From the NCBI RefSeq assembly GCF_029542785.1, contig NC_083377.1, positions 434,001 through 498,000 on the forward strand: a stretch of DNA of 64,000 nucleotides, written 5' to 3'. The translations under genes were made by a program, and so were the position numbers. Numbering within the stretch: the first letter of the stretch is position 1; each line of letters opens with the position of its first letter. The notes beneath the pieces are model-generated. The model saw only the letters and a list, made by a program, of their open reading frames with translations. It was not told where the DNA came from and searched no databases. Shown piece by piece: positions 34,726 to 63,074 of this stretch. The DNA is from Malassezia japonica (taxonomy: Eukaryota > Basidiomycota > Malasseziomycetes > Malasseziales > Malasseziaceae).

Positions 34726-37486
34726 ATGCGTCTTGCATGGCAAGTCGGACTGGCGTGGGCGGCCGCGTGCGTGCTGCCAGTCACGCCGGCCAAGGCGGAT
34801 GTGGCCGCGCTGGACGTGTCGTGGGGTCGTATGGATGATGCACAGCTCGTTTCGCTGTTTGAAAAGAGGTACTCGCCTGCCGAAGGGCTCAACACGTCGC
34901 TGGCGGCGCTGCGGAGTTTGCTGGACGAGGCACACGTCGACGTCGAGCTGCCGGCGGCGCCCAGCGCGGTGTCTGCGGCGGCGCGTAGCCTTGCCAGTGC
35001 TGGCGATGCGCTCGGCCTGCGCCGTGCGGCCGACGGACTCCGGCGGCAGGTGCAGGTGTGGACGTTGCGGCACCAGCAAGTCTATGCACATTCCGAGCAC
35101 GGCAAGGAAGTGTATACCGGTCCACTGCGCAAGGCGATTGCGATCGTGGCGCACTGGATCATGCGGCCAGCGCCGGAGCCGCACCGGCCGCCGTATACGT
35201 ACTATGATGCGACGGACCAATGGCCCGACTGGGACTTTGACGAAACACGGGCGGCCGTTGCTGCCGCCGCCCACAAGGTGCAGCCCATTACGAATGGCTG
35301 GGAACAGGCCATGTGGGGACCGTTTGTTGAAGGACTTGCACAGAGCACTGTACCGGCGATGCAGGCCGTGCAGGACGCGTACGATGCAGCTCCTAAAGAG
35401 CGTGCGCTCTTCTTTTACTTTCGCAAGGCTGTACAAAGCCTGTTCAAAAATACCAAGACGCCGAGCGCCGAAGTGCGCGAGACAAGCGCTACGCAGCGCC
35501 GTGCTTTGGCCATCCGTCTCCTCGAGTGGGTCGCGTTTTCGGGCGATTCAGCGGGGCTCGAGATGCGCACGACCCATGTGCAACGTGACGCTCTGTGGAT
35601 CCTCGGCGAGCACTCGTTATGGGGCACGCACGGAGCCTCCCCTAATATATCCCGTGCTATTCACTCTTTTGAACGGCTTGCTGCTTCTGGCAATGCCACG
35701 GCACATGCCCGCCTCGGCTTCCTCTACAGCAGTCCTCTGATGAAAGGGGTGTACAATACTAGCACACACCTGGACCGTGCGCTTCTTCATTATGCAATGG
35801 CTGCCGAGCAAGGCGAGCGGCATGCCGAGCTTGCCCTTGCAAGTCGTTACCGATTTGGATTCGGTGTAAAGCAAAATTGTACCAAAGCACTGTACCACTA
35901 CGAGCGCCAGGCCAACAAGTCCTACGATCTGTCGACGACCGTGATAGGCGGCCGAATGCCTTCGTACAGCAAGTGGTCCATTTATGTCCTCGAGGGGATT
36001 GTACGGCGTACCCGTGATATTCCGACCAGGCTATATTATAACCTCCTGGAGAGAGACGCGAACACTTTATATGTGGTCGCGTCCGATGAGGACCTACCAG
36101 GTTCTACACTCGATACGTTGAAACGATACCGCACGCTTCTCCATCAACAGCACGTTCGACACCATCTTCTGGAAATGGCCAATGCAAGGCAGATTCACGA
36201 TACAGGTCTTTTGTACCTAATTGCCCGTGCCCTTTACCATGGCAGTTTTGTCAGCCAGAGTGAGACGATCGGCGCATTTCCGCGCAACTTGACCAAGAGC
36301 GCACAACTCGCTGAACAAATTGCGCGGCGTTTGTGGCCCCATCCGAGTACAGAGAAGAAGCAAGCGCTGAGCGATAAGGAACAAAATATCGCGGTAAGAG
36401 CCGCTCTGCAACTTGGGATGCAGTACCTCCGTGGCGAAGGCGTCGCACAGAATATCAAAGCGGCGCATGAATGGTTTACGCGTGTAAAAGAGATGAATAA
36501 AGAGACCAACTCCTTCCAGAGCGCGCGTGCCTCCCATGGTCTGGCTTTAATTTCTATCCATGGCGTCGGTGGGTATCCAGCAGACAAGGAGTTGGCGCTC
36601 AAGCACTTAAAAGAACTCGACACTTCGGGAGAACCTGTTTTCTCCTTCGCACCTCGCCTTGATTTGGAGCTTGCAAGCCTCTACCTAAAAGAAGGTGATT
36701 ATGACCAAGCGCGCAACCGCATGGCGCATACACTGGAAGTTATCTCTATGTTGGACATGAAAACCTTTGTCTACCCCCGCGTCGAGAGGCCTTACATCCA
36801 GGGTGTTGTGCGCAAGGATTCGTTTATGAACGACAAAGGAAATTTTTGCAATGATGTTGTGGAAGCTTTCCAAGAGGCTGCCGAGCGCGGCGACTGGGAA
36901 GATCCTATATACCACCGCGGTACTGCCGCGTATGCACGCAACGATATACCCCGTGCGCTTCTGGCCTTTGCCCTTGCCGCGGATAATGGAATGTGGGAGG
37001 GCCAAGTCAACTCGGCCTACCTATTGGACCAAAGTACGTAACCCATCTCACCCAGACAAGTATGCCTTGCACGTAACACCGTCGCAACGGACGAATGCTG
37101 CGGCACTGCAGTTCTGGTCACAGGCTTCACTCAATCATGGCGCCGCAACCCAAGCTGGAACTGCACCACTCAGTCTCCGTGTTTGTAATTCCCAGTTATA
37201 CCTGGACGTGCCGGTTGAAGAAGCACACCATCGTGCCCTCGACTGTTACCTCGGCCACGCCAATGATACGCAGCCTCTCGCGTATTCCCACCTACAAGCA
37301 AGCTGGCTCTATGAATCAAGCCCTCATGTCCGCAACCTAACACTCGCCAAACACCACTTCATACGTGCTTTTGGCGGCGCAAAGCAGAACGAAGCCTTGA
37401 TCTTGTTATGGATGCGCGTCCGCCTTCAAGCGCGTGCCTTTGCCGAAGCAATTCATTATCGCGATTGGACGCGCGCTTTCCCATAG
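34726..37486 (+). CDS. HRD3/SEL1L-like protein a, truncated paralog without membrane anchor
   Basis: Exons 34726-37033 and 37056-37486 encode 912 residues; the 22-nt intron (37034-37055) has a GTACGT donor and CTCACCCAG acceptor. A signal peptide (MRLAWQVGLAWAAACVLPV) is followed by SEL1-type repeats such as LGEHSLWGTHGASPNISRAI, AELALASRYRFGFGVKQN and AALQLGMQYLRGEGVAQN. The layout matches the full-length HRD3-like gene at 42202-45087, but the protein stops at RDWTRAFP before any transmembrane segment or cytosolic tail. It should therefore be lumenal or secreted rather than a Hrd1-bound membrane subunit. Its stop codon lies inside the promoter element of the next copy. Base composition becomes markedly AT-richer from about 35.3 kb. 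Confidence 0.82.
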
Positions 37487-37487
37487 C

Positions 37488-37504
37488 CACGTGGCGCGCA
37501 CGGT
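37488..37504. promoter_or_regulatory. HRD3-family start-proximal element, copy b
   Basis: The same 17-mer as at 34705, 8 bp before the second HRD3-like ATG. Identity with the third copy extends over 27 bp (37478-37504 compared with 42163-42189) and takes in the last codons and TAG of the preceding gene. Confidence 0.75.
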
Positions 37505-37512
37505 TCCCTTTA

Positions 37513-40249
37513 ATGCATATTGCATGGCTTGGCCTGCTGGTAGTTGTTGTATGCGTGCTTTCGGTAGCACCGCGCAGCACACCAGCAGATGGGCTGGATG
37601 AGTCGTGGATTAATTTTAGCGATGCGCAACTTCATTCCCGACTCGAACAAACGTTCACCGCACCCGAGGCCCTGGATGCCGCATTGGCCATCCTGCGGAG
37701 CTTGTTGGACAACCCGAACGTTGAAGGCGAGACGCTGCTGGTACAGGGAAACCACTTGAGCTCCTACTTTACTCTTTCAAAGGTATGTGATGTGATTGGT
37801 TTGCATCATATGGCGGAGCGACTCCGCCAGCGGGCGCAGCAAAAAAGGTCGCAGCACCCGCTCCATGGAAACGCCAAGCCAGGCAAGGCCGGAAAAACTT
37901 GGCGGCCTCCCCATACATACTATGACGCGACGGATCTATGGCCTGATTGGGACTTTGATGCAGCAAGAGCTGCACTTGCAGTAGATGTGCACAATGTGCA
38001 GCCTGTTACCAATGGATGGGAACAGACCATGTGGGGTCCGTTTGTCAAAGGAATCGAGCCGCGCACCGTACCTGGGTTGCAGACCATACAAGACGCACAT
38101 GATACAACTCGAAAACAGCGCGCACTGCTGTATCTCTTTGGTAAATTGCTCCAGCGCGCTTGCTGGAGGTCTCCGACTCGAACTGCAGAGGTGCTAGAGT
38201 CGACAGAAACACAGAAGCGCACCCTCGCCATTCGTCTTCTCGAGTGGGTCGCCATTGGAAGCGCAGATCGCAATGTCCTTGAAGCCGATACGACCGACGT
38301 CCAATGTGACGCTCTGTGGATCCTCGGCGAGCACTCGTTATGGGGCACGCACGGAGCCTCCCCTAATATATCTCGTGCTATTCACTCTTTTGAGCGGCTC
38401 GCTGCTTCTGGCAATGCCACGGCACATGCCCGCCTCGGCTTCCTCTACAGCAGTCCTCTGATGGGAGGGGTGTACAATACGAGCACGCACCTCGACCGTG
38501 CGCTTCTCCATTATACGATTGCTGCCAAGCAAGGTGAGCGACACGCCGAGCTTGCCTTGGCGCACCGCTATCGGTTTGGTCATGGTGTTAAGAAAGATTG
38601 TGCCAAAGCACTATACCATTACGAGAGCCAGGCCAGCAAGTCGTATTCAATGTCAACGGCCGTGCTAGGCGGCCGTGTGCCCTCATACAGCAAGTGGTCG
38701 ATTCATATTCTTGATGGGATCGTACGGCGCACTCAAAAAGTTCCCAAGATGCTGTACCATACCCTGAATATAAGGGATACCGGAACAATGATTTTCGCTT
38801 CAAGTTCAGATCCTGACATGCCGTCTGCAGCCTTGAAAGCTCTGGAAAAATATCCTAGCCTGCTGCAAAGGGAACATACTCGTCATCATTTGCTCAATTT
38901 GGTAAACGCTGGTCAGGTCCATGATGCCCGCCTTTTGTATATCCTCTCTCGTGCTCTCTATCATGGCAGTTTTTTTGGTCCGAGCGAGACAATCGGTGAA
39001 TTCCCTCGTGATTGGATCAAGAGTGCCCAGTTAGCCGAGCAAGTCGCGCAGTTGATGTGGCCCAAAACAGGGTCGAAGAGGAAAGAACTCAGCCCAGACG
39101 ATCGGAAGCTCGCTATGAAAGCAGCCGAACAGCTTGGTATGCAGTACCTTCTTGGCGAAGGTGTCGCGCAGAACGTCGACATTGCATATCAATGGTTCAT
39201 GCGTGCGAAAGAAGTTGACAAGGGTTTGCCCAGACACTTAGTCGGAAGCGATTTTAGTTTTCGTGCCTCACTTGGCTTGGGTCTCATTGCGTTGCATGGT
39301 GTCAGTGGGAATGCCCAGAATACAGAACTGGCACTCGAGCATTTTAATGCTCATAAGCTCTGGAAGGAGGGCCAAAAGAAAAAATCACCATTCCTCGACT
39401 TTGAGCTTGCCAAATTGGATCTTCAAAAGGGAGATATGGACAGCGCACGCGAACAACTCATCCAACCCCTTGATTCGATCAACTTATTCGGGAGCTGGAC
39501 GTATCTTTACCCTCGTGTTGAGAATCCCTATGTACATGGCGCCGTGCGCTTAGACTCATTTCTGAAAGAGAAAGGAAATACATGTGAAGATGTTGTGGAA
39601 AAGTTCAAAGAGGCAGCCGAGCGTGGCGACTGGGCCGATCCTATATACCACCGAGGCTCAGCGGCATATTCCCGCAACGATATTCCCAGTGCACTTTTGT
39701 CATTTGCCATTGCAGCTGACGCAGGTGTATGGGAGGGTCAAGTGAATTCTGCCTACTTACTCGAAGCAAGTACGTATTTTATCTCACCTAGACAAGAACG
39801 CTCTACTTCAAATGCTCAATTATTCGGCTGACGCAGTCGCACTTCAGTACTGGTCGCATGCTGCACTATACAACAGTTCATCGATCCCCGAAAGAAGCGC
39901 ATTCCCAAAATTACGCGTATGCGACGCCCAGCTGCGTTCCAATACATCCACTCAAGAAGCACACCAGCGTGCCGTTCAATGTTATGAGCATTTTGCACGG
40001 GCTCGTCTCCCAAGACGCTATGAGTACGACATGCAACACGTCGCACATTTGCAAGCAAGCTGGCTCTACGAATCCAGTCCGCACGTCCGCAACTTGACGA
40101 GCGCCAAGTACCATTACTACTTTGCTTCATTAGACGCAGCACCTTACGAATTCTTCATCCTGCAGTGGATCCGCTTCCGCCTTCTCACACGCGCAATTCT
40201 CGACGCGATTCAATATCGCGATTGGACGCGTGCCTTTCTTAACGACTAG
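37513..40249 (+). CDS. HRD3/SEL1L-like protein b, truncated paralog without membrane anchor
   Basis: Exons 37513-39769 and 39792-40249 encode 904 residues. The 22-nt intron (39770-39791; donor GTACGT, acceptor CTCACCTAG) is at the same place as in paralog a. A signal peptide (MHIAWLGLLVVVVCVLSVAP) is followed by SEL1 repeats (LGEHSLWGTHGASPNISRAI, AELALAHRYRFGHGVKKD, LGMQYLLGEGVAQN). It ends RDWTRAFLND without an anchor, like paralog a. Only 26 bp separate its ATG from the stop of paralog a. A ~175-bp stretch (38308-38480) is nearly identical to 35587-35760 of paralog a although the proteins are much less alike overall. The gene is clearly AT-richer than the canonical copy. Confidence 0.82.
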
Positions 40250-40796
40250 GAGTAGGACGTATATGGCACTTTTTAATGGTTTAACGCCATATCCCAATCC
40301 AACGATGCATAATGCGTACAACGCACATGTTTGGCCCTAAACAAACGTGCAACAAGTCATTCAGGCGACCCTCGAATTCTTTTGCGTGCTCAAAGAGATA
40401 CTGCCGAGGGCATTACCTTTTATCCTCTCAAGACAAAAGGATACACTGTATTGCAATCGAGTTGAGAACAGGCGTGCATGTGGGCCAAGCTGCCCACGTC
40501 CTTGCTAATCTGTTGTCCTGGCTACGATACCTCACCTGGACGCTGCGCTAGCGATACCCATGTTGCGCATGATCGAGACAATCTCTCATCACCAGGCAAT
40601 AACAGTATGGCCCCCATTAGGAGTCGTTAATTTATTCCGTAGTCGTTCAAAGGCATTTGGACTATATGAGAGTGCTTTTCTGAGATGATAGATGGGGCAT
40701 CATTTGTTCGGTTTTAGATGGTCAGCGCGAAGGCAAACTACTCGAAACAAGCGGTTATAACTTTCATAAAATCGAGAACCGCTTAAACAAATATGA
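40250..40796. other. AT-rich intergenic region after HRD3-like b
   Basis: 547 bp with only short fortuitous ORFs. It is the 3' flank of both the HRD3-like b gene and the convergent double-cyanase-like gene. No repeat, tRNA or conserved motif was recognised. Confidence 0.5.
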
Positions 40797-41956
40797 TTAA
40801 GGAAAGTGCAATAACTCTCCCTCGATCACAATTTTGATGCTTTGGCCATTACTACCCAACACTTGTCCGACCGACACGTGGTTGATATTTTTGTCGAAAT
40901 ACACATGTTCAGCCTGGCATTAGACTCACGATGTGTACGTACTTGATCCTTGAATGCATTCCAAACGTAGGTTGAGTTCCTCTGAAATGCATGGAGTAGC
41001 TGTGCCATGATAGGATCTGTTTAAGTTGTTGGTATCCGTACCATAGAATGGTCCTCTTATTTCGTAGTTCACAATATTAGAAGCAAGACCGGCATTGTTG
41101 GCAATAATATGTTGGTGTTGGTTTAGCTGGAAAAACGAAACCAGCTTCGCGATGTCACTTTCAGTTGGACTTGCAGTACCGTCTAAGCTAATTATGAGTA
41201 CCAACCTGATAACATACATCTTGGAAAGATGATTTAAACCCAAATCAAGCGCTTTCGCTATTGCGCTCATTGGCTTACCACACTCCGTCATCGCCGCCTT
41301 CAAGGACATGATAAAGTTGAAGTAAAGAACTTGAGCAGTAAACTTTTCATACTCGAGTTTGAAAGCCTCATATTCAGCTTGTGTTGCATATATGTGTTTG
41401 GTATCCTTTCTAGTGCCACTCTGGAAAGTAATCGCAAAGATGCGGTCTTGCTTCATGAAATCAATATCACAGACCCAATCACCAGGGATCTCATCTAGCC
41501 ATTGAGACTAGCGTAAGTAATAAATATTCACTCACATGAGCATACACTTGATCAAGGATATCCTTGGAACATACGAACAACGTCCAGTTAAGCGTGGCGA
41601 GGAATTGTACTGTTGTGAGATGTGATTGTGCGGACCTTGGTGGTTAAATAGAATCTGACCGCTCGCTTGAATATGACTCCTGATAATTCCGCAAAAAAAC
41701 CTCTCTTCGAAGGTCAAGTGTAACATATCGTATATACAACCCTTTTCATGTTCGTCCGGGATTTTGATCCCACTCAAGCTTAATATAAATAGGATGCTCT
41801 AGCAACGTACATGTCCTCCAAGGCCCATTCATCAATTCTCACCACCTTTGCCAGATCACTAGTGCTCATATTCTTCTCGCGTTGCACATTATGTATGGCT
41901 TCGGCATAGTGCTCGATAATCCAACTGAGAACCTGTTTGTATGGAGTAGGATACAT
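40797..41956 (-). CDS. Double cyanase-like (HTH) protein, family member A, six introns
   Basis: Seven exons: 41956-41811, 41778-41636, 41609-41536, 41507-41218, 41187-41042, 41016-40943 and 40913-40797 (146, 143, 74, 290, 146, 74 and 117 nt). They give 329 residues; introns are 25-32 nt. The protein has two modules. Each has an XRE/cyanase-type helix-turn-helix (AKVVRIDEWALEDILSGIKIP; AIAKALDLGLNHLSKILDG.ASPTESD) and a short tail like the cyanase C-terminus (GDWVCDIDFMKQDRIFAITFQ; NGQSIKIVIEGELLHFP). The catalytic Arg and Glu of the cyanase motif YRxxE are Gln272 and His275 here, so hydratase activity is unlikely. It could bind DNA or form cyanase-like assemblies. It lies between two HRD3-like genes in AT-rich DNA. 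Cyanase homology is judged by eye; the gene model is strong because exon lengths match member C exactly. Confidence 0.72.
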
Positions 41957-42117
41957 CAAGGGGTGTGAAAAAAAGCGAGTAGCTAGGAGAAAAAATTGTG
42001 CCATTCTATTAAGTCTAAAAGTTCTAGCACAGCCACTGTACGGAAGAGGTAGCTCGTTGGAAGGACGCATTAGGTCGGTATGCATATGCGTGCACGCTCC
42101 TGCCGCTTCCTATGGAT

Positions 42118-42125
42118 GTGGAGGC
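42118..42125 (-). promoter_or_regulatory. Conserved upstream element of double-cyanase family, member A
   Basis: GTGGAGGC within a block resembling the regions upstream of members C and D (TATGGATGTGGAGGC here, TATGATGTGGAGGC at C). It sits about 162 bp from the ATG of member A, compared with 155 and 157 bp in C and D. It also lies upstream of the divergent HRD3-like c gene. Confidence 0.5.
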
Positions 42126-42172
42126 CCGCACACTCATTGGGTGCCACGCGTTGCCGAGCACCTTCCCATAGC

Positions 42173-52543: not shown

Positions 52544-53251
52544 ATGGACGCTGCGGAGGCCTGGCAGGCGGTCCTCCAGCAGGACGCGGGGACCGCCGCG
52601 CACTACGAGAGCCGCGTGCAGGGGCGCCGCGTGCAGCTCGAGAATGTCGACCGCGCGGCGCCGAAGCCGGCGTCGGAGATGCTCGCGCGCCAGGTGCGGC
52701 GTGCAGAAGGGCGCGCACGCCGCGCGGCACACATGGCCCAGCGCCGAACGCCGCGGCACGCACACACCGTGCGCCCGAACCAAGTGTCCTACGCGCAGGC
52801 CGAGCCGCTGCATGCGCTCTGGACGACCTACGCACAGGAGCTGCTGGGGCTGCCCGAGCTGGGCGCAGACGAAAAGGCACTGCGCTCCGCTCTGACGAAC
52901 ACCTCGCATGTGCAAAACATGCAAAACACCCTGCTCAAGGCAGACTGGATCGGCGCACACGTCGAGGTCGTGCAGTCGACCAACCCCACCCTCGTCCACC
53001 TCGCAGGGATCATTGTACAGGAAACGCACGAAGCACTCCACATAGTCGTGCGCGGCGACGCGCGCGTACGCCTCGTCCCGAAACAAAACTCGGTGTTTCG
53101 TATGGAGATTGCCGCATCCGACGCGGCCGACGCACCGCGCTTGCGGCTGGATTTGTACGGGAACCAGCTGCGTTATACCCTCCCAGCACGTGCCACACGC
53201 AAGCACAAGGCGCGCAAGACCATTGAGCTCGACCGGACCGCGGCGGGGTAG
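52544..53251 (+). CDS. POP4: RNase P / RNase MRP protein subunit Pop4 (Rpp29)
   Basis: A single-exon 235-residue protein. The C-terminal half is the Rpp29 Sm-like barrel: LLKADWIGAHVEVVQSTNPTLVHLAGIIVQET, ALHIVVRGDARVRLVPKQNSVFRMEI, and the closing LRLDLYGNQLRYTLPARATRKHK. The basic helical N-terminus (MLARQVRRAEGRARRAAH) is usual for eukaryotic Pop4. The protein is a core subunit of both RNase P (tRNA 5' processing) and RNase MRP (pre-rRNA A3 cleavage). It diverges from the RCC1-PHD gene. Confidence 0.93.
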   Translation: MDAAEAWQAVLQQDAGTAAHYESRVQGRRVQLENVDRAAPKPASEMLARQVRRAEGRARRAAHMAQRRTPRHAHTVRPNQVSYAQAEPLHALWTTYAQELLGLPELGADEKALRSALTNTSHVQNMQNTLLKADWIGAHVEVVQSTNPTLVHLAGIIVQETHEALHIVVRGDARVRLVPKQNSVFRMEIAASDAADAPRLRLDLYGNQLRYTLPARATRKHKARKTIELDRTAAG

Positions 53252-53491
53252 CGCACACGCAGAGGCACAGTGCACGCCACGTCTGCGCACGGCGTCGTCC
53301 GAGAAGTGCAGGGGCTCGTTGCACGCGATGCACACTCTCTGCCTACTCCACATGCTCACCGCGATCGGGCCGATCGTGACTGCAGGGGACTGCAGTGCGT
53401 CCATCCTACCCCATTCGGATCGCGACGAGCCGCCGAACGTGTGGCGGTGCCTCGTAGGCTTCTTCTCATAGATTCCCCGTTCCCCACCATC

Positions 53492-54967
53492 ATGTCTGCT
53501 TTGCCGTATGAACGCGATGCGGAAATGGTCATCAAGCACTTCCTCAAGGAAGTCGCCGACATGCAAAAGACACGCCGCCTCGATGACCATTCCTTCTCTA
53601 TGTTAGTCAATATCGAAAAAACACTCCTCTTTAAGCTGTACGTGGACTCGCTCATGCAGCATCGACCGCGTTCGCATCCCGAATGCGAACCAGATCACGT
53701 CGCTAGTCACGTCGCTCAACATCACGCTGGGTCGTAGGATGTACTGCCACCTAATCAAGAGCTTTGTCAGGCGCAAGGGTCCGGGGGCGCTGGGCAAGAA
53801 GGGTACGTCGCACCGGCCAACGTAGAACATTTTCACCTGCAGCTCCAAGAGGTTATCATTTACAACGCCGAGTTCACGCTCAGCGGGATGGAAAAGAGGG
53901 TACGTCGCCACGCTCACCCAGTTCCAAGGCCACACAGAAAGCCTAGACGACTGGACGACGTCGGTGGATTACATGCGCAAGTTTGAAATCGTCGGCGTTT
54001 TCTACCGCGTCAAGGGCTACAACCACCTGGACGACAGTAACGTGGCCAGGGTGCGAACCCTCAGCGAATCCGAAAAGAAGATGCTCGAGCTCCACTTTGA
54101 TGCTGTCATGGCACAGAGCGGCTACCAGCAGTTTCTCGACGCGCTGAACAGTGCTAGGGCTACCAAGCACATCCCGATGCGCGATTTGGCCCGAGAACTG
54201 TGCATGAGCCCAGCGCGTATGCAAAAAGTGTACGTCTCCCTCGCGTGCTGATGCGCAGGTTTCAGGGATTCGAGGACCCCACGGACGACGACATTTTCGA
54301 TCTCGCCGAGTACTTCAAGCTGTACGAGAATCCGGGCGTGGTCGACAACATCGTCTTTCACGCATTCAACTCGACCGCTGCATCATTCAAGCACTATTGC
54401 CGTTCGTCGCTAAAGCTCACCCAGACCCCGTCATGGGCCAGTTTCGCCAGGTCATGAAGCGGGACCTCGACAAGATCTGGGAGGCGTTTCAGCAGATTGT
54501 AGGTTGAATGTTGCTCACACCAGTGTCCTGACTCGATTCTGGGAACCAAGTCCTCGCACACGTTTGTCATGCGGCTGCCGGGGTGGAACACGCCGGGCGT
54601 AAAGGTGATGGCCGCCGCACCGTCTCTCAAGTGCCCTACGGACTTGGGATTCCGCCAGATTGACAACTACACCGGCCCCGTGATCAAGCGGCACCGTACT
54701 GAAGAGGAAAAGGGCAAGGACGTCAAGAAGGAGGAGCCAAATGCTACCAATGCGCTTCCTGTGACTAATCCTGAGTCTATGGAGGTAGAGGAAGTGCCCA
54801 GCAATCTCAAGGCCGAGACTAGTGAAGTCAAGGTGCCCTATGATGTCAAGGAGGAGCCTAGCCAGGTCAACGCGCCGTCTCACGATATCAAGGAAGAAGA
54901 CGACATCAAAGAGGTCATCAAGAACGAGAAGGGAGAATCGGTTGAGGTTATCTATATTTCGGATTAG
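53492..54967 (+). CDS. Double cyanase-like (HTH) protein, family member B, with acidic/SUMO-type tail
   Basis: Seven exons: 53492-53637, 53660-53802, 53826-53899, 53922-54229, 54259-54401, 54425-54498, 54524-54967 (146, 143, 74, 308, 143, 74, 444 nt). They give 443 residues; introns are 22-29 nt and one uses a GTTCGT donor. Two cyanase-like modules: HTH1 SMLVNIEKTLLFKLIDRVRIP with tail DDWTTSVDYMRKFEIVGVFY, and HTH2 DLARELCMSPARMQKVFQGFEDPTDDD with PVMGQFRQVMKRDLDKIW. The Arg/Glu catalytic pair is Gln/Gln. The last exon is much longer than in A, C and D and adds ~95 residues with repeated VKKEE, LKAE, VKEE, IKEE, IKNE sequences, ending in VEVIYISD. This is the GC-richest member, so it may be the ancestral or most constrained copy. 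Confidence 0.72.
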
Positions 54968-55310
54968 CCTACTGATAGCTTGCGTGGCTCATGGAGCTTG
55001 CACGTCCAAGTCTTTTGCTGTCCAATTCGGCTCGCCCTGGCGTAAAGGCGAGGCCATGTGGACCCACGTGATGGGGATTGTCCAAAATTGGGCCGAATTA
55101 GCCAAAAGGTACCTCCACATGTGTCCGTCGAGAACATGGCGCACCTTGCCCCAGCGCATGATTGGGTACCAAACAACTTTCAAAGCATAATCTGCTCCTG
55201 AATCAGACGTTTTCCAATACATACTGGCATACGGGTAGCTTTTGAATATATTTGCACAGCACAAGTCAGACCCCAACGCATCCATATGTATATATATAGT
55301 CTCTCCCAAG
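54968..55310. other. Intergenic region after member B
   Basis: 343 bp with no accepted gene. It contains a CACGTG at 55065-55070 and a TATATATATA run at 55289-55298 just before the small ORF that follows. A 154-codon minus-strand ORF covering it has no recognisable features. Confidence 0.4.
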
Positions 55311-55715
55311 ATGTTCCATTTCCTTGTCATCATTATGCCTGCCCCTACGAAGGCACCTCTCCACCAAGAACAAAACGATGGACCTGCTTTTGATTTTGAA
55401 GGCTCGATTCCACCTGGAGTCGTGGGCCTTGATTTTGATAATTCAACGTACAACGTGGAGCTCTACATGCAGGATGGCCAAGAAATGATGAGCATTGACG
55501 TGACCGTTCCTTATCTCTTTGACAAGAACGATGAAAACCGCGCGCCTTCTACGGATGGAGACTCTAGCAGTCGTGGACGCGACACAGGGGGCAACGGATC
55601 CCACGACGATTCCGCCAGTGCACAGCAGCGTGCGGACAGGGGTTCTTCTGCTCCTCGTGTTACCGATGGCAATGATGTGGCTGCTGACTCACCGATGAAG
55701 AAGCACACACTCTAA
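55311..55715 (+). CDS. Small acidic ORF (134 aa), possible relic of a double-cyanase gene 3' exon
   Basis: ATG at 55311 (a second in-frame ATG at 55335) to a TAA at 55713. The segment MQDGQEMMSIDVTVPYLF resembles the last strand pair of family member C (NDGHEINISIHGELVPMP), so the ORF may derive from a terminal exon of a fifth family member. The C-terminal half is a disordered Ser/Asp/Gly-rich tail, as in member B. A TATA-like run lies 13 bp before the first ATG, which is close for a functional promoter. Whether it is expressed is unknown. Confidence 0.35.
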   Translation: MFHFLVIIMPAPTKAPLHQEQNDGPAFDFEGSIPPGVVGLDFDNSTYNVELYMQDGQEMMSIDVTVPYLFDKNDENRAPSTDGDSSSRGRDTGGNGSHDDSASAQQRADRGSSAPRVTDGNDVAADSPMKKHTL

Positions 55716-55968
55716 AATTGTCCGGATCGGATGTTAGATGGATCAGGTTATGGCGACAAATAGTGTTAACGAGTCAATCGTTCTAATGGAGAGCCTCTGT
55801 AGCACTGGAATATCCATGGGAAATTGCGTCAATAGACCCATGTTACTCTTTTGTGGCGAATTATTGAGCTATAGTAGGGTTCTTCAAATGTAGTCAGTCA
55901 TAAGGTTTAATATGAGCTTCTCCATTCATTTCCTTCCTAGTTTCAAAAACTTGTTCCACTGGTCTACT

Positions 55969-57131
55969 TTAAGGCATCGGTACAAGCTCCCCATGGATCG
56001 AGATATTGATCTCATGGCCATCATTACGTGGTATAATTATGGCCGAAACGTAGTGACAATACATCTCCAAGTATGTATTGGGAGCCTATTGTCAGATATG
56101 CCTTAAGTGACGTACATGATGGACGAATTCATTCCAAAGGTAAATTGCATTCCTCTTCAACACATGACGTAGCTGAATCATAATGGGGTCTGAGTCAGAA
56201 GCAGATACATGCCGCAAAATTCATCCATTGTCTCCTGACAACCCGTGCTAAAGGCATTCATCACACAGTTATCAATTATTGCAGCGTTGTGATGTAGTTG
56301 AAAGAAGTCCACCATTTTAGAGATATCACTTTCACTGGGACTGTAGGTCCCATCAAGGCTGTTTATAAGTTACTTCTCGGAACCACATACATTTTGGCAA
56401 GCGTAGAAACTTCTAGGTTGAGTTCTTTGGCCATTTTTTCGATTGGAATGTTACTGTCCAGAAAAGCAGTCCTCAGGTTGAGAAAGTATGCAAGGTAGAG
56501 CCACCGAGCAGCAGTCTGGTCATACTCATGTACAAGGTCAACGGCATCTACTTCTGGGATACAATCCCAGCTGGTATTGCCCCTGTTCACTCCTTGGAAT
56601 GAGATAGCAAAGACTTGGTTATGTCTCATGAAATCGAATTCACATGTCCAATTTTTAAAGAGCTCGTCTTTGTAATTTGACTGTAGTTAAATATACAGTC
56701 TGAAACTCACTTGGTCAAGGAGCTGGGTAATGATATTTTGAGCACAAACCATCAGGGTGCAGTTCAATTCGATTGAAAGCAATTCTTAAATTAGCAATGA
56801 AAAGACGGACCTGGGCCACAGAGTAATACTTGTCCACTTCTCTGCACTAGGCTGTTGAAAATGCGACTGATGAAAGCTTCGCTGTACGACAAGTTCAAAG
56901 TGTACCATATGTGCTGTCGTTTAGCAAAGTCGGGGAGGTATTGTCCGACCAATCTAGAAGTAAGCCGCATTGGCTGAGGACTCACATCTCGCTAAGTTCC
57001 TGATCGCTGATTCTCAGAAGCTTGCCAAGATTATGGTGATCCAGTTTCCTTTTGTGCTGCTCATCTCTGATGGCTTGGACATAGTGCTTGATCGTGTCGC
57101 TGGAATCTTGCTCGTACGATGTACTGGTCAT
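55969..57131 (-). CDS. Double cyanase-like (HTH) protein, family member C, six introns
   Basis: Seven exons: 57131-56986, 56953-56811, 56784-56711, 56680-56391, 56358-56213, 56189-56116, 56085-55969 (146, 143, 74, 290, 146, 74, 117 nt), exactly the exon lengths of member A, giving 329 residues. Introns are 23-32 nt; the fifth (56190-56212) appears to be a GC-AG intron. Modules: HTH1 LGKLLRISDQELSEILVGQYLP and tail FKNWTCEFDFMRHNQVFAISFQG; HTH2 MAKELNLEVSTLAKILDG.YSPSESD, then DPIMIQLRHVLKRNAIYLWNEF and NDGHEINISIHGELVPMP. The YRxxE pair of cyanase is replaced by Gln and His. The gene is AT-rich and lies 341 bp from member D in the same orientation, indicating tandem duplication. Confidence 0.72.
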
Positions 57132-57472
57132 GAAAGGTAATTTGGTTTAAGGGAAACTCGTCAATTTCATAAAAGAAAGATATGATAACATAGGCACAGC
57201 CTCAATAAGGGGCTTCCCTTATGCAGAAACCATACTCTTTCTAGGCATACATCTATGCATACCCCTTGCTGTTATTCAGTATGATGTGGAGGCCTCCATA
57301 GTTCATTGGACATCACCTGTCTCGCAAGATGCTGTCCTCTTACAGCCATGGTTCCGCTGGTCTATTATTTTTTTTTTCGATCCCCACTGTTGAACCACTA
57401 TGATACCATGTATGATTATGAGTCGTATCCGCTTCATAGGAAACTCAGAGGTCGGTTGAAACCACGAGTGGT
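57132..57472 (-). promoter_or_regulatory. Upstream region of member C with conserved element
   Basis: 341 bp between the C start and the D stop. CCCCTTGCTG at 57262-57271 is shared with the region upstream of D, and GTGGAGGC at 57286 with that upstream of A; the latter is 155 bp from the ATG. A run of T (about 57366-57378) is also present. No ORF is accepted. Confidence 0.5.
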
Positions 57473-58660
57473 TCAATCTAGCACTTTTGTTGAAGGAATA
57501 TGAGGCAGTTTCTTGAGTTCTCCTTCGATGATAATGTTGATCATGCGACCAACAGTATCAGGCACTTGAGTTGCAATAACATGAAGGTCTACCTTCTCCA
57601 TTCGTGAGTTTGGAACCAGGCATTAGATACTCAGTGAGCACTTACAGTTCGAACAAACTCGTCCCAGATGTAATCGACATTCCTCTTTAACGTGTTGCGT
57701 AACTGTACCATGACGGGATCTGTGTAAGGTACGGAAAACGTACGGCAAAAAAAATGGAATAAGTCTCGTTGTCGGTTGTCAAATGCATGAGCAACATAGT
57801 TTCCAACGATCGCTGGATTCCGGTTCAGTTCGAAGAAAGTGACAAGCTTAAATATGTCGCTTTCATTTGGGATCGAAGTGCCATCGATGCTAATGAATGA
57901 GCGGCGTGCACAGAGAACGCACATCTTTTTGAAATAACAACTTTCGAGATCAAGTTCTTTAGCCACCATACCAAGCGTCTTAGCAGTCATGGACAAGCCA
58001 TTCCTTAGGTTTATGAGAAAAATCCAATAGAGTATCCGAGAAGTAGCCTTATCATATTCTGCCTTGAGGGTATCATGGTCCATTTCGAGTACGTTTCCAC
58101 TGTATTCCCCGTTCTTGGTACACCCTTGAAATAGGATAACAAACATCTGGTCTTGTCGCATGAAATCGATATTGCAGATCCAATTATCTTTGAAATTGTT
58201 TTGATCATTTGGCTGGAATGAGCTTTCACACCATGGCGTACCTGCGTATGCACTTGGCACAGTATCTCAGAAGCACGTGTCAAAAACAAGCAGTTGATTT
58301 CAGTCAAGAGTAGCTCTGGTGTGAGTCATCCATACACGTACCTGGACCACAAAGTGATGCCCTTCCACTGCATTGAACAAAGCTGCTGACCAGCTGACTA
58401 CAGAATCGATTATCCAAGGATATGCTAAACGCGTCGATTGTATGCCGTAGAAGGATGGGGTCGGGGGATGTGGACCCGTCTATTCTACGAGGTAAGCTTG
58501 TGCTTTAGACATACATGTTATTCAACGTCTCCTCATTCATCCTCAGAATCCTGGCCAGTTCCAAGTTACTAATATTTTGTTTTTGCTGTACATCCTTAAT
58601 GGACTGGAGATAGTGCTGGATAATAACACGCGAGCTTTGGCTGTCTGAAGAAAGGACCAT
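57473..58660 (-). CDS. Double cyanase-like (HTH) protein, family member D, last splice acceptor mutated
   Basis: Exons 58660-58515, 58484-58342, 58315-58242, 58212-57923, 57889-57744, 57719-57646 and a last exon ending at 57473. The first six are 146, 143, 74, 290, 146 and 74 nt, as in A and C. The acceptor of the last intron, by alignment at 57617, reads CTAATGCCTG instead of CTAATGCCAG. An in-frame AG 21 nt further (intron 57596-57645) could serve, giving 331 residues. Retention would add only VSAH and remove the last strands. Modules: HTH1 ARILRMNEETLNNIIDGSTSP; tail FKDNWICNIDFMRQDQMFVILFQG; HTH2 VAKELDLESCYFKKIIDGTSIPNESD; HPVMVQLRNTLKRN (Gln/Asn for Arg/Glu). It is the member closest to the AT-rich core. 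Confidence 0.68.
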
Positions 58661-59200
58661 GGATTGAAATAAAGAGTAGGGGAAGACTTCGTTTCAAAGT
58701 AACACAAAACCAGAGATTAGGAACACAGCCATAACGGGACATACTCCCATGCCAGGCAAGCATCCTTCTCAACTTGCATATTTCTGCACGCCCCTTGCTG
58801 CTCTCATGTGCTGGTGTGGAGTATGCTCAAGTTCCTTGGACCCAATACGCTTCGAGTCAAAGTTAGATAAGACGAGCCTTGCGAAACTAACGCCAGCATT
58901 GAGGGCATCACTGGTTTATTCGGACAGCTGCGCTGTACCAAGCATCGCTACGTTGTGGACAAGTTGGCGCCAGATTTTGTTTGCATCAATATCTCGGCCT
59001 ACAATCGAGTGGAAACTTTCAGTAGTAGTTCTATATCTTCACTGAAGCACACACTCATACCAGTCTTACACAGAACCCGTTCGGAATTCGTGCAAAGTAG
59101 TTGCCTGTACAGACCCTTCATCGTAGAACATGATTACCAATCCAAGAACCAGAAGGGCGACCCTGGACGGACTTCTGACTTTTCAAAAACTTGAATAAAT
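58661..59200. other. Gene-free flank between member D and the AT-rich core
   Basis: 540 bp without an accepted ORF. Contains the shared block CCCCTTGCTG (58793-58802) and GGTGTGGAG (58815-58823), 157 bp from the D start codon, matching the upstream regions of A and C. A+T content rises sharply at the right end. Confidence 0.45.
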
Positions 59201-59645
59201 AAACCCCATCAAAGATATTACATTATGTAAATATATTCATTGACGCATTACAAAAAGAATCTTGAAAACCTCCCGACAATATAAAACAACAAATTTATTA
59301 TTCAAATTTAACATTTATAAAATACATATACAACATTTTGTTTTCTTTTCAAAATAAAATATATTAAATAACTGATTGTCATGCTTCTAAATTGCAAATA
59401 CAAATTAAAAGAATTCATAAAATAAAATAAATTGAATAATTGTGTTGCGATGTATTTATTGATAATCAATATTTACACGAATTTCAAATTAAGTTTTATA
59501 ATTTTACAATATAATTGCATTAAATTTTGGAATTATTCTTATCTTAGTGAATTATTACTCGCTTTTGATATGTGTTATTTCACCATGTTGTTGATTAATG
59601 ATTTAAATAATGCAAAAATGTTATAGAGTAGATATTTTATGCTCT
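59201..59645. other. AT-rich core, candidate centromere core
   Basis: By hand count 59281-59640 has about 66 G or C in 360 bases, some 82% A+T, in a window whose genes are well above 55% G+C. No ORF over 65 codons, no tandem array and no transposon features were seen. AT-only words such as AATAAAATAAATT recur on both strands. Malassezia centromeres are described as kinetochore-bound regions of a few kb around an AT-rich core below 1 kb with a short AT-rich motif. Size, composition and gene-poor setting fit. I cannot check the 12-bp motif from memory. Alternatives are an AT-rich replication origin or a long 3' region of SWI1. Confidence 0.55.
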
Positions 59646-59655
59646 ATTGTGTCTA

Positions 59656-61069
59656 CTACTTTGTACTTAACAGTGCCGAGTCTGACCACCAGTCGCCGTC
59701 GCGGCCAGCCTGACGGGTGGAGGTATCTTCGCGGCTTAGGAATGACGACTGGTCAGATACATTTTTGCCGTCATAGGAAGTGAAGTCCAAAAATTGTACA
59801 TCCCAATTCTCATTTGGATTGCCATCATTTTGGACAGAAGAGAGAGCACCTTGCGGCGACTCATACAGACCTTGGACATCTTTCATCCCAAGGTCGAGCA
59901 TGTCTTGGAAATCGCCCGCAATTCCATAAGGTGCATTGATCAATGCAAAGACAGCGGCCTCTGTGTTTCCGGATGAAAAGACCGAGTATTCATCCACAAG
60001 GCTGCCCTTGGGGCTTGCTTGATTTTCCATCGATTTTGACTTGGATGTGTGCTCATCCATAGCGATCAACTCATTCCAAATCTTCTTGACAAATTCGATT
60101 GGCGAGTTCTTTGACAGCTCCGTGTATTGGGCCTGCTCCTGATCAAACTCTTCTTGAGTTCGCTTGAGAGCTTCCGCGAGGTGATCTGGCGAAGTGGTAA
60201 CCATCGGCGATCCTGTCCTGGTCATAGGCGTGACTGTCTTTTTGGAATCGACGTCGGGCGTCTCACTGAGTGGCGCTGATGGTGTATCAGTCTGCTTGCC
60301 CTTGAAGATCTTCGTCTTGGTCCCACTCTTGGTACTTTCTGTAGTCTTTGGCGAGCTCGTTCCAGTGATCTCAAAGTCCTCATTAAGATCACCAAGCTTG
60401 GCCCGTTTGTTGAGGGGCGATTCGACGTTGAGCGAGCGCTTCGCAGCTTCCTCTTGAGCCTGCTTGGCGCGCGCAGCCTTTTGCGCCTGTGCCATAGCTT
60501 GTGATGCTTTGGCCACAATTTGCTGTGCAAGGTTGTCGTCGTTCACTCGAACAAAGCCAATGCACCGCGTCATTTGAGTTTTGAGCTTTTCCAAGTCAGT
60601 GAGCCGCAAGATACATTGCCGCTTAGGAACTAGAGCAAGCTGGTCGTCAAACATGTAAATCATGATCTTGACGCGCTTTGCTGGTTCAATATTACCAGTC
60701 ATGGCCAAGAAAGCCGGTAACAATGCAACAACAGTTGCCTTTAAGGAGACCAGCTTCTTAATCTGCTCCAGAACCTGGGAACGTTCGGTTTCTGACATGC
60801 TTTCAATGATAGGAAGTTTTGGTCTTGAAGAAGCCAAGCTAGCATCCACGCGCTTCAGCACCGTTTCAGCATCTTCCAGCATCTTGGGCGTGACCTTTGT
60901 CTGTGTCTGCTGGTTCTTTTCCGGCGAAGCTGTAGGGGCTTTAGGTGCCACCTGTGGCGGCCGTGCCTGCGCCTGTTGTGCAGCCATCTGTTGTATCGCA
61001 GGCCAATTTTGCCCGGCATTCGACTGGGCCTGTACCGGCATGGCTGTCGCGTTCTGCACAGGCCTTGGC

Positions 61070-61101
<32 letters not shown>

Positions 61102-62745
61102 CTTATGCTGCTGCAAAAGCTGAGCAAGCTGCTCTGGTTTGAGCTTCAGCTGGGCAAGCTGTTCTGCTGTGATAGGCAAGTCTTGGCGAGTAGCCGAATT
61201 CATCGGCTGCGCAGGCCGCTGCTGCATTTGTGCAAAAGGCTGTCCCTGAACCATGTTGAAGTTGGGCCGGGGAGTTGTATTTTGCATTGCAGCGCCTTGC
61301 AAGCTAGGGGGAATCAGCGGGTTATGATCGCTCCGGCCAGGCATGGAAGTACTGGGTATTGGGTTGTCGCGCTTCACATTAGACATGCTCATCTGATGAA
61401 GCATAGCGCGGTTCCACACTTCTTCAAATAATTCCAAGAAGGAGCGGTACACCTGCGCAATCTTTTGGGCAGCCATAGTCGCCTGTGGAGACTTGGCCAT
61501 TGCCAGACCCAGCGTGACGGCGACGGTGGGCCACGTCCCCTTTTGGGTGACCATCTTGCTTCCTCCCAGTGCCTGCACCACGGTGAATAAATGATAGAGG
61601 TCCACTTCGCGCCCATCCACAACGGGATTCGAGTGGAAAGACTTTCCGTGGTGATTCATCAGATCGGTCAGTGCCCGCTTGAACTGTTCCGGGCTCGGTG
61701 TCATTACCGGCGGATTCGACGTATTCTGCACAGGCTTTTGCACGCCCATCGATTGATTGAAAGGCTGAGCGCTGAGCGACGGGCTGCTGGTGCCCACCTG
61801 GTTTTGATTGTGCATGTTCATCATGGGGTTCTTGGCTTGCGCACTAAAGTTGACGCCAAAGTTGGGCACATTTTGCTGCACTTGCGGCTGAACCATGCCC
61901 ATCTGCGGCGAGTTGACCTGCTGCTGAACATTGTTCCGCTGCTGTGCCAGCTTTTGGACCAACGCTGTCTGTACGCGTGTCAGCTCTTGGTGCGCGCGCT
62001 GCAGTGCTTGGCGCTCGTTATCAGGGATCGCCGTAGCCAGCTTCTGTTCCACTTCGCGGATCCGCTGCTGGATCGTGCGAACGAATTGCACACCCTGTGC
62101 CATATTAGGCTCTTGTTTCGCTTGTCCCATGTTGTCCTGCGTAGGTATCGCATTCATCTGTGGCTGAGGCACCGACGTCGAGGCCGGAGTCTGCATCATC
62201 ATCGATGGCTGCTGTTGCACCGGCTGCTGCTGCATGGCCTGCTGCTGCATCGACTGCAAGAGCGCAGCATACTGCGCGTTCGGCACGACGTTCGGCTGTG
62301 TCTGGGGCTGTTGTACCGATTGCTGCTGCTCGATAATCGCACGCAGCTGGACTAGCTGATTGGGCGTGAGCATCCCCGCCTTGGCCTTGGATGCCATATC
62401 GGCGAGTATAGCACTCATATTGTTCTGTGCCGGTGGCCTGACCATGTTGGCGGCGTTCATCGCGTTAGGCATACTCGCCATCGGCGCAGGCTGTGCCTGC
62501 TGTGGCTGCAACATCATGTTCTGGGAGAACTGATTGGTGGGCATAGGTTGCTGTACAGATGAGTTCTTTTGGTTCAGAAGCGTTTGGAGCTGCTGCGCAG
62601 AGAGACTGTTTAGAAAGTCTTGCTGCGACTTTGGGAAGGCCTGGACATCGTGCTGCGGCTGCATCGCCTGCTGCTGCTGTAACAGCCGTACGATCTGCTG
62701 CTGCACCCCAGGATCAAACTTCCCTCCTGGCGTAAATCCCGACAT
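59656..62745 (-). CDS. SWI1: SWI/SNF chromatin-remodelling subunit with ARID domain (Swi1-like)
   Basis: A single-exon 1,029-residue Gln-rich protein. The start is the ATG at 62745 (MSGFTPGGKFDPGVQQQIVRLL); the frame upstream offers only GTG. Residues ~1-340 are Gln, Met, Asn and Pro-rich. An ARID DNA-binding domain follows at ~355-450 (FKRALTDLMNHHGKSFHSNPVVDGREVDLYHLFTVV...GGSKMV...WPTVAVTLG), then a poly-Gln run encoded by CAG/CAA repeats near residue 550. A conserved helical region follows (KMLEDAETVLKRVDASLAS...KRVKIMIYMFDDQ), and the C-terminus is acidic. ARID plus Q-rich regions is the signature of Swi1/ARID1, the DNA-binding subunit of SWI/SNF. A Med15 identity was considered for the Q-rich part but there is no KIX domain. 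Its 3' end borders the AT-rich core. Confidence 0.83.
61056..61120 (-). repeat. CAG/CAA polyglutamine tract in SWI1
   Basis: A run of glutamine codons (CTG/TTG-reading on the plus strand) near residue 550 of the SWI1 protein, about 14 residues long. Mixed CAG and CAA codons suggest selection for the amino acid rather than a pure expanding microsatellite. Confidence 0.8.
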
Positions 62746-63074
62746 CACGGGACGCTTGGGTTCTGGTCCAGCTCAGCGATCTAACGATAGTGCCAATCGC
62801 GGTGGTGGCCTGCAGGTCGCTTTTAGAGCCCTGTGCGGGATACGCAGCTCCACATTGTGTATTTCCACGACAGCCTATGGGGACGGCATGCAGCTATGGC
62901 GGGGTATGTCGTCATGCCAGGCAGCATAGGGAAGGCGCGGCACAAAGAACTAGAAGTAGGTGAAGGAAGAGTGCACAGAGAGCATAGCTTGCGTGGGCCC
63001 ATAGAGTGTTCGGCATGCCGGGGCGAAATCGGCTACGCGGCTGTGACGAAGCGGCCGGCGGATCGTCTGTCTGA
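62746..63074. other. SWI1 upstream region
   Basis: 329 bp between the SWI1 start and the stop of the INO80-F-like gene. It should hold the SWI1 promoter and possibly 5' UTR. No motif, repeat or additional gene recognised. Confidence 0.4.

Follow-up and report, generated by a model that had tools for sequence, protein, structure and literature searches.

Cyanase is generally regarded as a single-function detoxifying enzyme; it is a decamer, with its active sites between subunits. The skin yeast Malassezia japonica has a single true cyanase gene, which scores 115.9 bits to the Pfam model PF02560 and matches solved cyanases, and its genome also holds at least ten genes (A to J) made of two modules. 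Three kinds of described system come closest to these double genes. The first is cyanase itself, CynS (PF02560 and PF21291; E. coli 1dw9, fungal 6xgt), with which they share the module order of helix-turn-helix (HTH) bundle, DP-helix block and end segment, as well as the intron places and phases of the genome's own cyanase gene, but from which they differ in having two modules per chain, no Arg96/Glu99 pair and no Pfam cyanase match. The second is the XRE or Cro/C1 type of HTH regulator (PF01381, PF12844), whose members are the best PDB sequence matches of the double proteins and whose curated cut-offs are passed by A, C, F and G; unlike these regulators, the double genes appear to be enzyme-derived, their HTHs are not consistently basic, and each chain has two of them, each followed by a cyanase-type C-terminal part. 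The third is the pseudoenzymes in general, since the double genes have likewise lost catalytic residues while gene and fold are apparently kept. A literature search found no cyanase pseudoenzyme, and one for cyanase domains, folds, cyanase-like proteins and fusions turned up only work on cyanate use in ascomycete yeasts.

The window, that is, the whole stretch of 64,000 nucleotides analysed here, holds four of the double genes, whose predicted models give, after splicing, two-module proteins of 323 (A), 443 (B), 329 (C) and 331 (D) residues:

40797..41956, minus strand: member A, two-module gene, almost certainly cyanase-derived, 323 aa; both modules in the intron-pattern scan; exons 41956-41811, 41778-41636, 41609-41536, 41489-41218, 41187-41042, 41016-40943, 40913-40797
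53492..54967, plus strand: member B, 443 aa; both modules in the intron-pattern scan; exons 53492-53637, 53660-53802, 53826-53899, 53922-54229, 54259-54401, 54425-54498, 54524-54967
55969..57131, minus strand: member C, 329 aa; module 1 in the intron-pattern scan; exons 57131-56986, 56953-56811, 56784-56711, 56680-56391, 56358-56213, 56189-56116, 56085-55969
57473..58660, minus strand: member D, 331 aa; both modules in the intron-pattern scan; exons 58660-58515, 58484-58342, 58315-58242, 58212-57923, 57889-57744, 57719-57646, 57595-57473

The spliced model of A reproduces exactly the ends that the first-pass annotation had given for this gene. B is the most diverged of the four and carries an additional Lys/Glu-rich C-terminal tail; exon HMMs built without B match its exons 1, 2, 4, 5 and 6 and give no match to exons 3 and 7, and a search of the protein collection with its exon-4 frame (12 candidates) found nothing at E values up to 10. 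D has the metagenomic relatives P0001-P0003, and in its comparison with P0002 139 of 170 exon residues are equal against 28 of 39 in the read-through introns, a sample too small to use. Pfam searches with single exons gave nothing useful. The small ORF 55242-55715 was rejected as a possible remnant of a family end exon, since it had no exon-HMM match at E 0.05.

The first-pass annotation had proposed a family of four; A to D are indeed two-module genes, but that count was too narrow. E, F and G lie in the same cluster as A-D, H and I adjoin the true cyanase gene, and J is on a third contig. The modelled first exon of H is short, which makes its N-terminus tentative, and the J model starts after the first exons of that gene. 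That each member holds two successive domains was confirmed by profile-profile comparison, in which the first modules (A-G) matched the second modules (A, B, C, D, F, G) with a program probability of 91.6% and a score of 46.3 over 110 columns, whereas 200 column shuffles never exceeded 21.6. The cyanase-like tails quoted earlier are also present, GDWVCDIDFMKQDRIFAITFQ closing module 1 of A and NGQSIKIVIEGELLHFP closing A itself. Each module of B groups with its counterparts in the other cluster genes (99/95 and 97/96), which points to one fusion event.

The kinship with cyanase is seen in the introns. Short introns interrupt the true cyanase gene three times, at codons 45 (phase 2), 91 (phase 1) and 116 (phase 0), spaced by 46 and then 25 codons. 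In A the introns lie at codons 48/96/121 in module 1 and 211/260/285 in module 2, and B, C, D and F repeat this series. Each module of A-D matches the cyanase gene in intron place and phase, with a spacing of 48-49 and then exactly 25 codons; the last two places are exactly 25 codons apart in every module that has both introns. In the first automatic models the phase 2 intron of each HTH was already in place in all seven cluster genes, as was intron 2 in A-F, and the hand-drafted template E was made independently of the cyanase gene, before that gene was read. Other introns, namely introns 5/6 in several genes, intron 3 of E and those of the H, I and J models, were placed with the expected position in mind; the GC donor of intron 5 in C and F is our own choice, and the intron 5 stretch of D and F may be read in frame as well. 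The concern of circularity that this raises is answered by a scan free of sequence similarity and by a permutation test. The scan looked for cyanase-type phases around a 74-nt exon, the exon lengths being derived from the family and cyanase and other lengths serving as control. Across 94 kb of C8 it returned 20 chains, of which 13 fell on ten family modules, as compared to 0-9 chains (mean 4.3) for 23 other exon lengths; module 2 of C escaped it because of its GC donor. Across 10 kb of C6 it returned three chains, which belonged to the true cyanase gene and to module 2 of H and of I. In the permutation test, in-register placement of the intron-defined block of 25 residues gave the best fit to cyanase, for ten second modules (p = 0.0002) as well as for nine first modules (p = 0.002).

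Profile-profile comparison of module 2 (A, B, C, D, F, G) with 11 cyanases gave a program probability of 94.4% and a score of 51.1 over 140 columns, the best of 200 shuffles reaching 21.9. The C-terminal part of module 2 from A-G alone was borderline (1 of 200 shuffles as good), that of module 1 alone gave no signal (39 of 200 as good), and the second module of I alone yielded nothing against the cyanases. None of the eight double proteins searched (A, B, C, D, F, G, H, I) passed the curated cut-off of PF02560. The proposed profile link thus held for module 2, was marginal for module 1 and failed in single-sequence Pfam searches. PDB profile searches of the family placed HTH proteins on top, with the cyanase 5uk3 as a weak match (E 0.088) in one of three, and we make no claim of cyanase identity from them, nearly all matches being HTH proteins. 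An AlphaFold model of the D read-through ORF, from an alignment of 17 rows (D ORF, P0001-P0014, P0016 and A ORF), reached a pLDDT of 47.3 and was left unused. That Pfam and PDB searches show almost only HTH would suit a protein with tandem XRE-type HTHs that resembles cyanase in its C-terminal part by chance, but three introns with cyanase places, phases and 25-codon spacing in both modules, the full-length profile match and the cyanase-like FGD...FTIELKG stretch at the C-terminus of H make this extremely unlikely. Combined together, the shared introns, the profile-profile match and the in-register block uphold the cyanase link that had earlier been aligned by eye, and both halves of the double genes almost certainly originate from cyanase.

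Loss of the catalytic pair, claimed earlier for the window's members, extends to the whole set, as Arg96 and Glu99 occur together in none of the 20 modules; Arg96 is kept in one (J module 2) and Glu99 in three (B and H module 1, I module 2). In the second modules of A-D the Arg96 place is Gln in all four and the Glu99 place is His (A), Gln (B), His (C) and Asn (D). These are the residues that had been reported as Gln272 with His, Asn or Gln at 275, numbers which are right for C and D but should read 266/269 in A and 277/280 in B. The first modules do lack the pair, but B module 1 retains a Glu at the Glu99 place, so that the statement that no motif is kept there needs this correction. A Ser lies close to the Ser122 place in module 2 of A, C, E and F, an end that aligns poorly. 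Recurrent replacements, with Gln at the Arg96 place in 6/7 second modules and Trp or Cys at the Glu99 place in 6/7 first modules of A-G, might speak for an enzyme of altered chemistry with a rebuilt active site; by eye, however, there is no conserved new polar constellation, and we consider such an enzyme very unlikely. Judged from their residues, the double proteins very probably do not perform cyanase catalysis.

An HTH had been assigned to each member. With a cut-off of 23 bits for the Pfam model HTH_3, A (27.5) and C (23.9) pass while B (15.6) and D (15.3) fail; A, C, F and G together score 23.9-29.5 bits, the true cyanase 12.2 bits. Taking PF01381, PF12844 and PF13560 together, the same four of eight double proteins exceed the cut-offs, and B, D, H and I do not. 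The sole PF01381 match reported by the genome search lies at C2:394231, which we take to be an MBF1-like gene. The 14 HTHs of A-G have net charges from -7 to +8 and pI values of 4.5-10.3, and their recognition-helix residues show no conservation by eye. DNA binding or transcriptional regulation through the HTHs is a possibility that we would place a little short of an even chance; a scaffold role, also put forward in the first-pass annotation, may be a further one.

The course of events that we propose is, up to this point, all but established: an intron-bearing cyanase gene was duplicated head to tail within a single reading frame, and the double gene then multiplied, lost the catalytic pair in both modules and diverged into no fewer than ten genes. 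Because one chain holds the equivalent of two cyanase subunits, it may form a covalent pseudo-dimer that combines two HTH bundles with two C-terminal oligomerisation domains, and such pseudo-dimers may assemble into larger rings, like cyanase. The likeliest function is probably that of a non-catalytic, regulatory protein whose paired HTHs would bind DNA or a protein partner. Taken as a whole, with double-cyanase descent, catalytic loss, pseudo-dimer and regulatory role, the proposal seems to us about evenly balanced. A role without DNA, in which the double proteins co-assemble with true cyanase or each other and tune or store cyanase, would agree with the in-register position, in both modules, of the block in which the active-site Arg and Glu lie, and with the presence of a true cyanase gene that two double genes adjoin; the high divergence of the cluster members from true cyanase and HTH scores of A, C, F and G above that of the enzyme argue against it, and we hold it to be unlikely.

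Six of the cluster genes also share sequence outside their frames, and the cluster lies around a GC minimum:

42007..42171, minus strand: upstream block of A (-215 to -50), common to C, D, E, F and G
57182..57346, minus strand: upstream block of C
58711..58875, minus strand: upstream block of D
59171..59670, no strand: GC minimum, 21.2% GC in 500 bp, probable centromere core

The block is common to six cluster genes (A, C, D, E, F, G), 13 of their 15 pairs being alike (z>3), as against 0/15 in the control stretch from -450 to -285. Its likeness rests on these gene-pair comparisons, because BLAST of part of A's block against the genome returned only itself and no second copy. The GC minimum, some 510 bp away from where D starts, is probably the centromere core around which A-G are arranged; CEN8 of M. 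slooffiae has 513 bp and 24% GC (PMC7025860, Table 2). Conversion of cyanase into a eukaryotic covalent double-HTH DNA-binding family, expanded around one centromere under a common upstream block and perhaps acting on that block or on pericentromeric chromatin, may be entertained as a minor possibility. A decaying cluster without present function, retained near a centromere of low recombination, would account for E, which looks broken (at intron 5 it lacks a splice acceptor and has an in-frame stop), and for a copy of the upstream block at C8:513684 without a recognisable family gene. Against such decay stand the open spliced frames over the modelled exons of nine of the ten double genes (J only in part), the conserved upstream block, the metagenomic relatives of A, C, D and F, entries that are open frames by construction, and a pN/pS of 0.43-0.56 in all ten pairs of A, C, D, F and G, which demonstrates constraint only roughly because pS is saturated. 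We regard decay as quite improbable; A, C, D, F and G look to be under constraint, with function kept.

It thus seems that a new protein family, probably regulatory, has arisen from an old cyanate-degrading enzyme, whose gene was doubled in frame, lost its catalytic pair and is now present in at least ten copies within a small genome of 8.4 Mb. The coexistence of a gene of the ancestral kind with strongly diverged two-module copies makes it possible to trace how an enzyme became a new protein. Since the Pfam matches of the double proteins give no pointer to cyanase, it is the introns that reveal what sequence search misses, and shared intron places and phases can in this way expose common descent.

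The genome consists of 8,433,779 bases in nine contigs, and the window corresponds to C8:434001-498000, where C8 denotes NC_083377.1 and C6 and C7 are other contigs of the same genome. The genes discussed below, A to D being modelled with a spliced-alignment script and then by explicit splicing, are as follows.

A, window 41956..40797, minus strand, double gene, 323 aa
B, window 53492..54967, plus strand, double gene, 443 aa
C, window 57131..55969, minus strand, double gene, 329 aa
D, window 58660..57473, minus strand, double gene, 331 aa
E, F and G, C8 506.9-512.3 kb, double genes of the same cluster beyond the window, modelled from matches to the long exon of D
J, C7:424573-425409, double gene, found with H (see below) as query (E 0.0017, reciprocal E 0.0015)

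The introns of A to D measure 22-50 nt, and the two successive modules described for these genes in the first-pass annotation hold in the spliced models. The C-terminal tail of spliced B is rich in Lys and Glu and contains the stretch KRHR as well as several VKxE/IKxE-like motifs; it may carry a nuclear or SUMO signal. Between B and C, at window 55242-55715, there is a 157-codon open frame, which gave no Pfam match and no match to the exon HMMs of the family.

Both PF02560 matches reported for the genome fall in a single gene (C6:249192-249730), at two of its exons; this gene encodes a 156-residue cyanase with DP..YR..E and FGDG..S motifs and, among solved cyanases, matches 6xgt with E 1.3e-30. 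The gene is interrupted at codon 45 (phase 2), codon 91 (phase 1) and codon 116 (phase 0), by introns of 23, 22 and 23 nt, respectively. The corresponding places in module 1, the N-terminal half, of A to F are 48 in phase 2, 96 in phase 1 and 121 in phase 0, while G keeps the first of the series alone; in module 2, the C-terminal half, the series recurs, for instance at 217/266/291 in C, D and F. In every module with both of the last two introns, the distance between them is exactly the 25 codons seen in cyanase. Thus three introns are equal in place and phase across both halves and the true cyanase gene, which makes the case for a cyanase origin of the double genes strong and bears out a link that had earlier been drawn by eye. 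The cyanase gene itself is readable only by splicing its 22-23 nt introns. Malassezia introns are called very short, lengths not being given, in a passage of a review (PMC7426719), and genes with introns like these may be missed by annotation that imposes a minimum intron length.

We also scanned both strands for this pattern without using sequence similarity, requiring the phases, introns of 20-60 nt, an exon of 137-149 nt, an exon of 74 nt and open frames; the lengths were derived from the family and cyanase, and 23 other lengths served as controls. In 94 kb of C8 the scan gave 20 chains, 13 of them at ten family modules (A1, A2, B1, B2, C1, D1, D2, E1, F1 and G2, the digit being the module) and 7 at four other places, as against 0-9 chains (mean 4.3) with the control lengths. 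In 10 kb of C6 it gave three, namely the true cyanase and module 2 of H and of I (controls 0-3). Invisible to the scan are C2 and F2 (modelled GC donors), E2 (acceptor missing) and G1 (introns lost).

The family proved larger than the four members first proposed. The long exon of D had 12 matches in its own genome, every one on C8. E (C8:506885-508030) has an in-frame stop at intron 5 and lacks the splice acceptor there, and intact paralogs are present. Exon-by-exon HMMs trained on A, C, D, F and G, leaving B and E outside, matched E in seven of seven exons and B in exons 1, 2, 4, 5 and 6, and detected no additional copy within the 94 kb of C8. As a query, B matched C6:246690-246878 weakly (E 0.013). 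This locus, 2.3 kb away from the true cyanase gene, proved on reading to contain H and I, a tandem pair of double genes that share the intron series except for intron 3; the C-terminus of H, FGDRGVEPHDFTLKIQ...RFTIELKG, is near the cyanase end in sequence. J has a phase-2 and a phase-1 intron with 48 codons between them. As F, I and J gave no additional members as queries against the genome, A to G together with H and I (via B) and J (via H) amount to at least ten double genes, beside one true cyanase. Relatives from metagenome assemblies were present in the protein collection, where the search gave 16 proteins at E up to 10 (P0001-P0016), none carrying a name and P0015 being marked as the window's own. 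By eye, P0001-P0003 are D-like, P0004-P0009 A-like, P0010, P0011 and P0014 F-like, and P0012 and P0013 C-like; P0016 is unplaced. The exon-4 frame of B had no relative in that collection.

No cyanase model came up in Pfam searches with eight of the double proteins (A-D and F-I). The cut-offs for the helix-turn-helix (HTH) were passed by A, C, F and G, and all remaining matches lay under cut-off. Profile-profile comparisons were made with a cyanase profile of 11 sequences (the genome's own gene, two from Flavobacteriaceae and eight from plasmid records). For module 2 (A, B, C, D, F, G) the match had a probability of 94.4% and a score of 51.1 over 140 columns, against a maximum of 21.9 among 200 column shuffles; for module 1 of A-G the probability was 57.1% (33.5 over 116 columns; best shuffle 26.0). 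With B left out, module 2 gave 82.4% over 131 columns and module 1 gave 81.5%, the latter over just 62 HTH columns. The post-HTH part of module 2 was weaker in A-G (22.0 over 25 columns, equalled by 1 of 200 shuffles) and reached 27.4 over 60 columns with H added (0 of 199), while that of module 1 gave no signal (39 of 200). Taken alone, module 2 of H matched at 50.8% and that of I not at all. The likeness to cyanase claimed for both halves is thus seen by profile in module 2 and marginally in module 1, but not in the post-HTH part of module 1 alone nor in Pfam. The 25-residue block between the last two introns was best in register with cyanase (permutation p 0.0002 for ten module 2 and 0.002 for nine module 1; 0.002 and 0.006 with A-G only), being set from the remaining intron where one is missing (module 1 of H and I, module 2 of J and E), from codon number in module 1 of G and by eye in module 1 of J. 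The two modules are alike in sequence, and in the tree the first modules of A-G (97/96) and the second modules of A, B, C, D, F and G (99/95) each group together, which fits one in-frame doubling preceding the spread of the family; branches are long, and the positions of H, I and B module 1 are unsure.

The catalytic pair Arg96 and Glu99 (E. coli numbering) is absent from all 20 modules, Arg being kept at its place only in module 2 of J, and Glu in module 1 of B and of H and module 2 of I. In module 2 of A-D these places hold Gln followed by His (A), Gln (B), His (C) and Asn (D), confirming the earlier reading. Module 1, with Thr/Trp (A), Gln/Glu (B), Glu/Cys (C) and Glu/Cys (D), had been described as free of the motif, which is right for the pair, but B retains the Glu. 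A fungal cyanase is reported to depend critically on the residues equivalent to Arg96 and Ser122 (PMC7801690); the double proteins have therefore probably lost cyanase activity.

All ten pairs among A, C, D, F and G gave pN 0.32-0.41 and pS 0.73-0.79 (ratio 0.43-0.56), which indicates constraint just roughly because pS is saturated. Of the 15 pairs that A, C, D, E, F and G form, 13 were alike (z>3) in the sequence from -215 to -50 relative to the start codon, as against none in the control stretch -450 to -285; BLAST with this block of A found no second copy in the genome, so the blocks are alike just at the level seen by pairwise comparison. Of the ten genomic occurrences of CTCCAC-N80..92-GGCTGTG (eight for the reversed control), five precede A, C, D, E and F, one is at C8:513684 and four lie elsewhere. 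At C8:513684-513778 the block copy has no recognisable family gene behind it and is possibly the remnant of a lost copy.

The double genes lie in islands of about 35-59% GC (window 36000-42000, window 53000-60000 and C8:507-514 kb) in a stretch mostly of 58-70% GC. A, C, D, F and G have a GC3 of 0.45-0.50, and that of B and the true cyanase is higher, at 0.73-0.75. Within the 94 kb of C8, GC content reaches its minimum, 21.2%, in a 500-bp segment at C8:493171-493670 (window 59171-59670), about 510 bp from the start of D. On the minus strand at window 59656-62748 there is a Gln-rich open frame of 1030 aa, possibly ARID/Swi1-like, adjoining this minimum. The minimum is probably a centromere core, judging from its position and length near those of M. 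slooffiae CEN8 (497,637-498,149, 513 bp, 24% GC; PMC7025860).

Within the open-licence literature we found no prior report of a double cyanase family. Titles and abstract starts on Malassezia and cyanase held nothing on it; Malassezia with cyanate hydratase, and cyanase with pseudoenzyme, returned no publication; cyanase domain, fold, -like and fusion returned just work on ascomycete yeasts; and the main text of the genus-wide genome paper (PMC4634964) has 'cyan' as a colour alone and no PF02560.

As the anatomy suggests, a double protein would be a covalent pseudo-dimer carrying two HTH bundles. The main rival reading is that the double proteins act as partners of the true cyanase. A regulatory role is favoured since the HTHs of A, C, F and G, besides standing above the Pfam cut-offs, outscore the enzyme's own HTH. 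Against one shared DNA site stand the net charge of the HTH, which runs from -7 to +8 across A-G, and the recognition helix, in which we saw no conservation by eye. On the likeliest reading, the double proteins would be two-HTH regulatory proteins.
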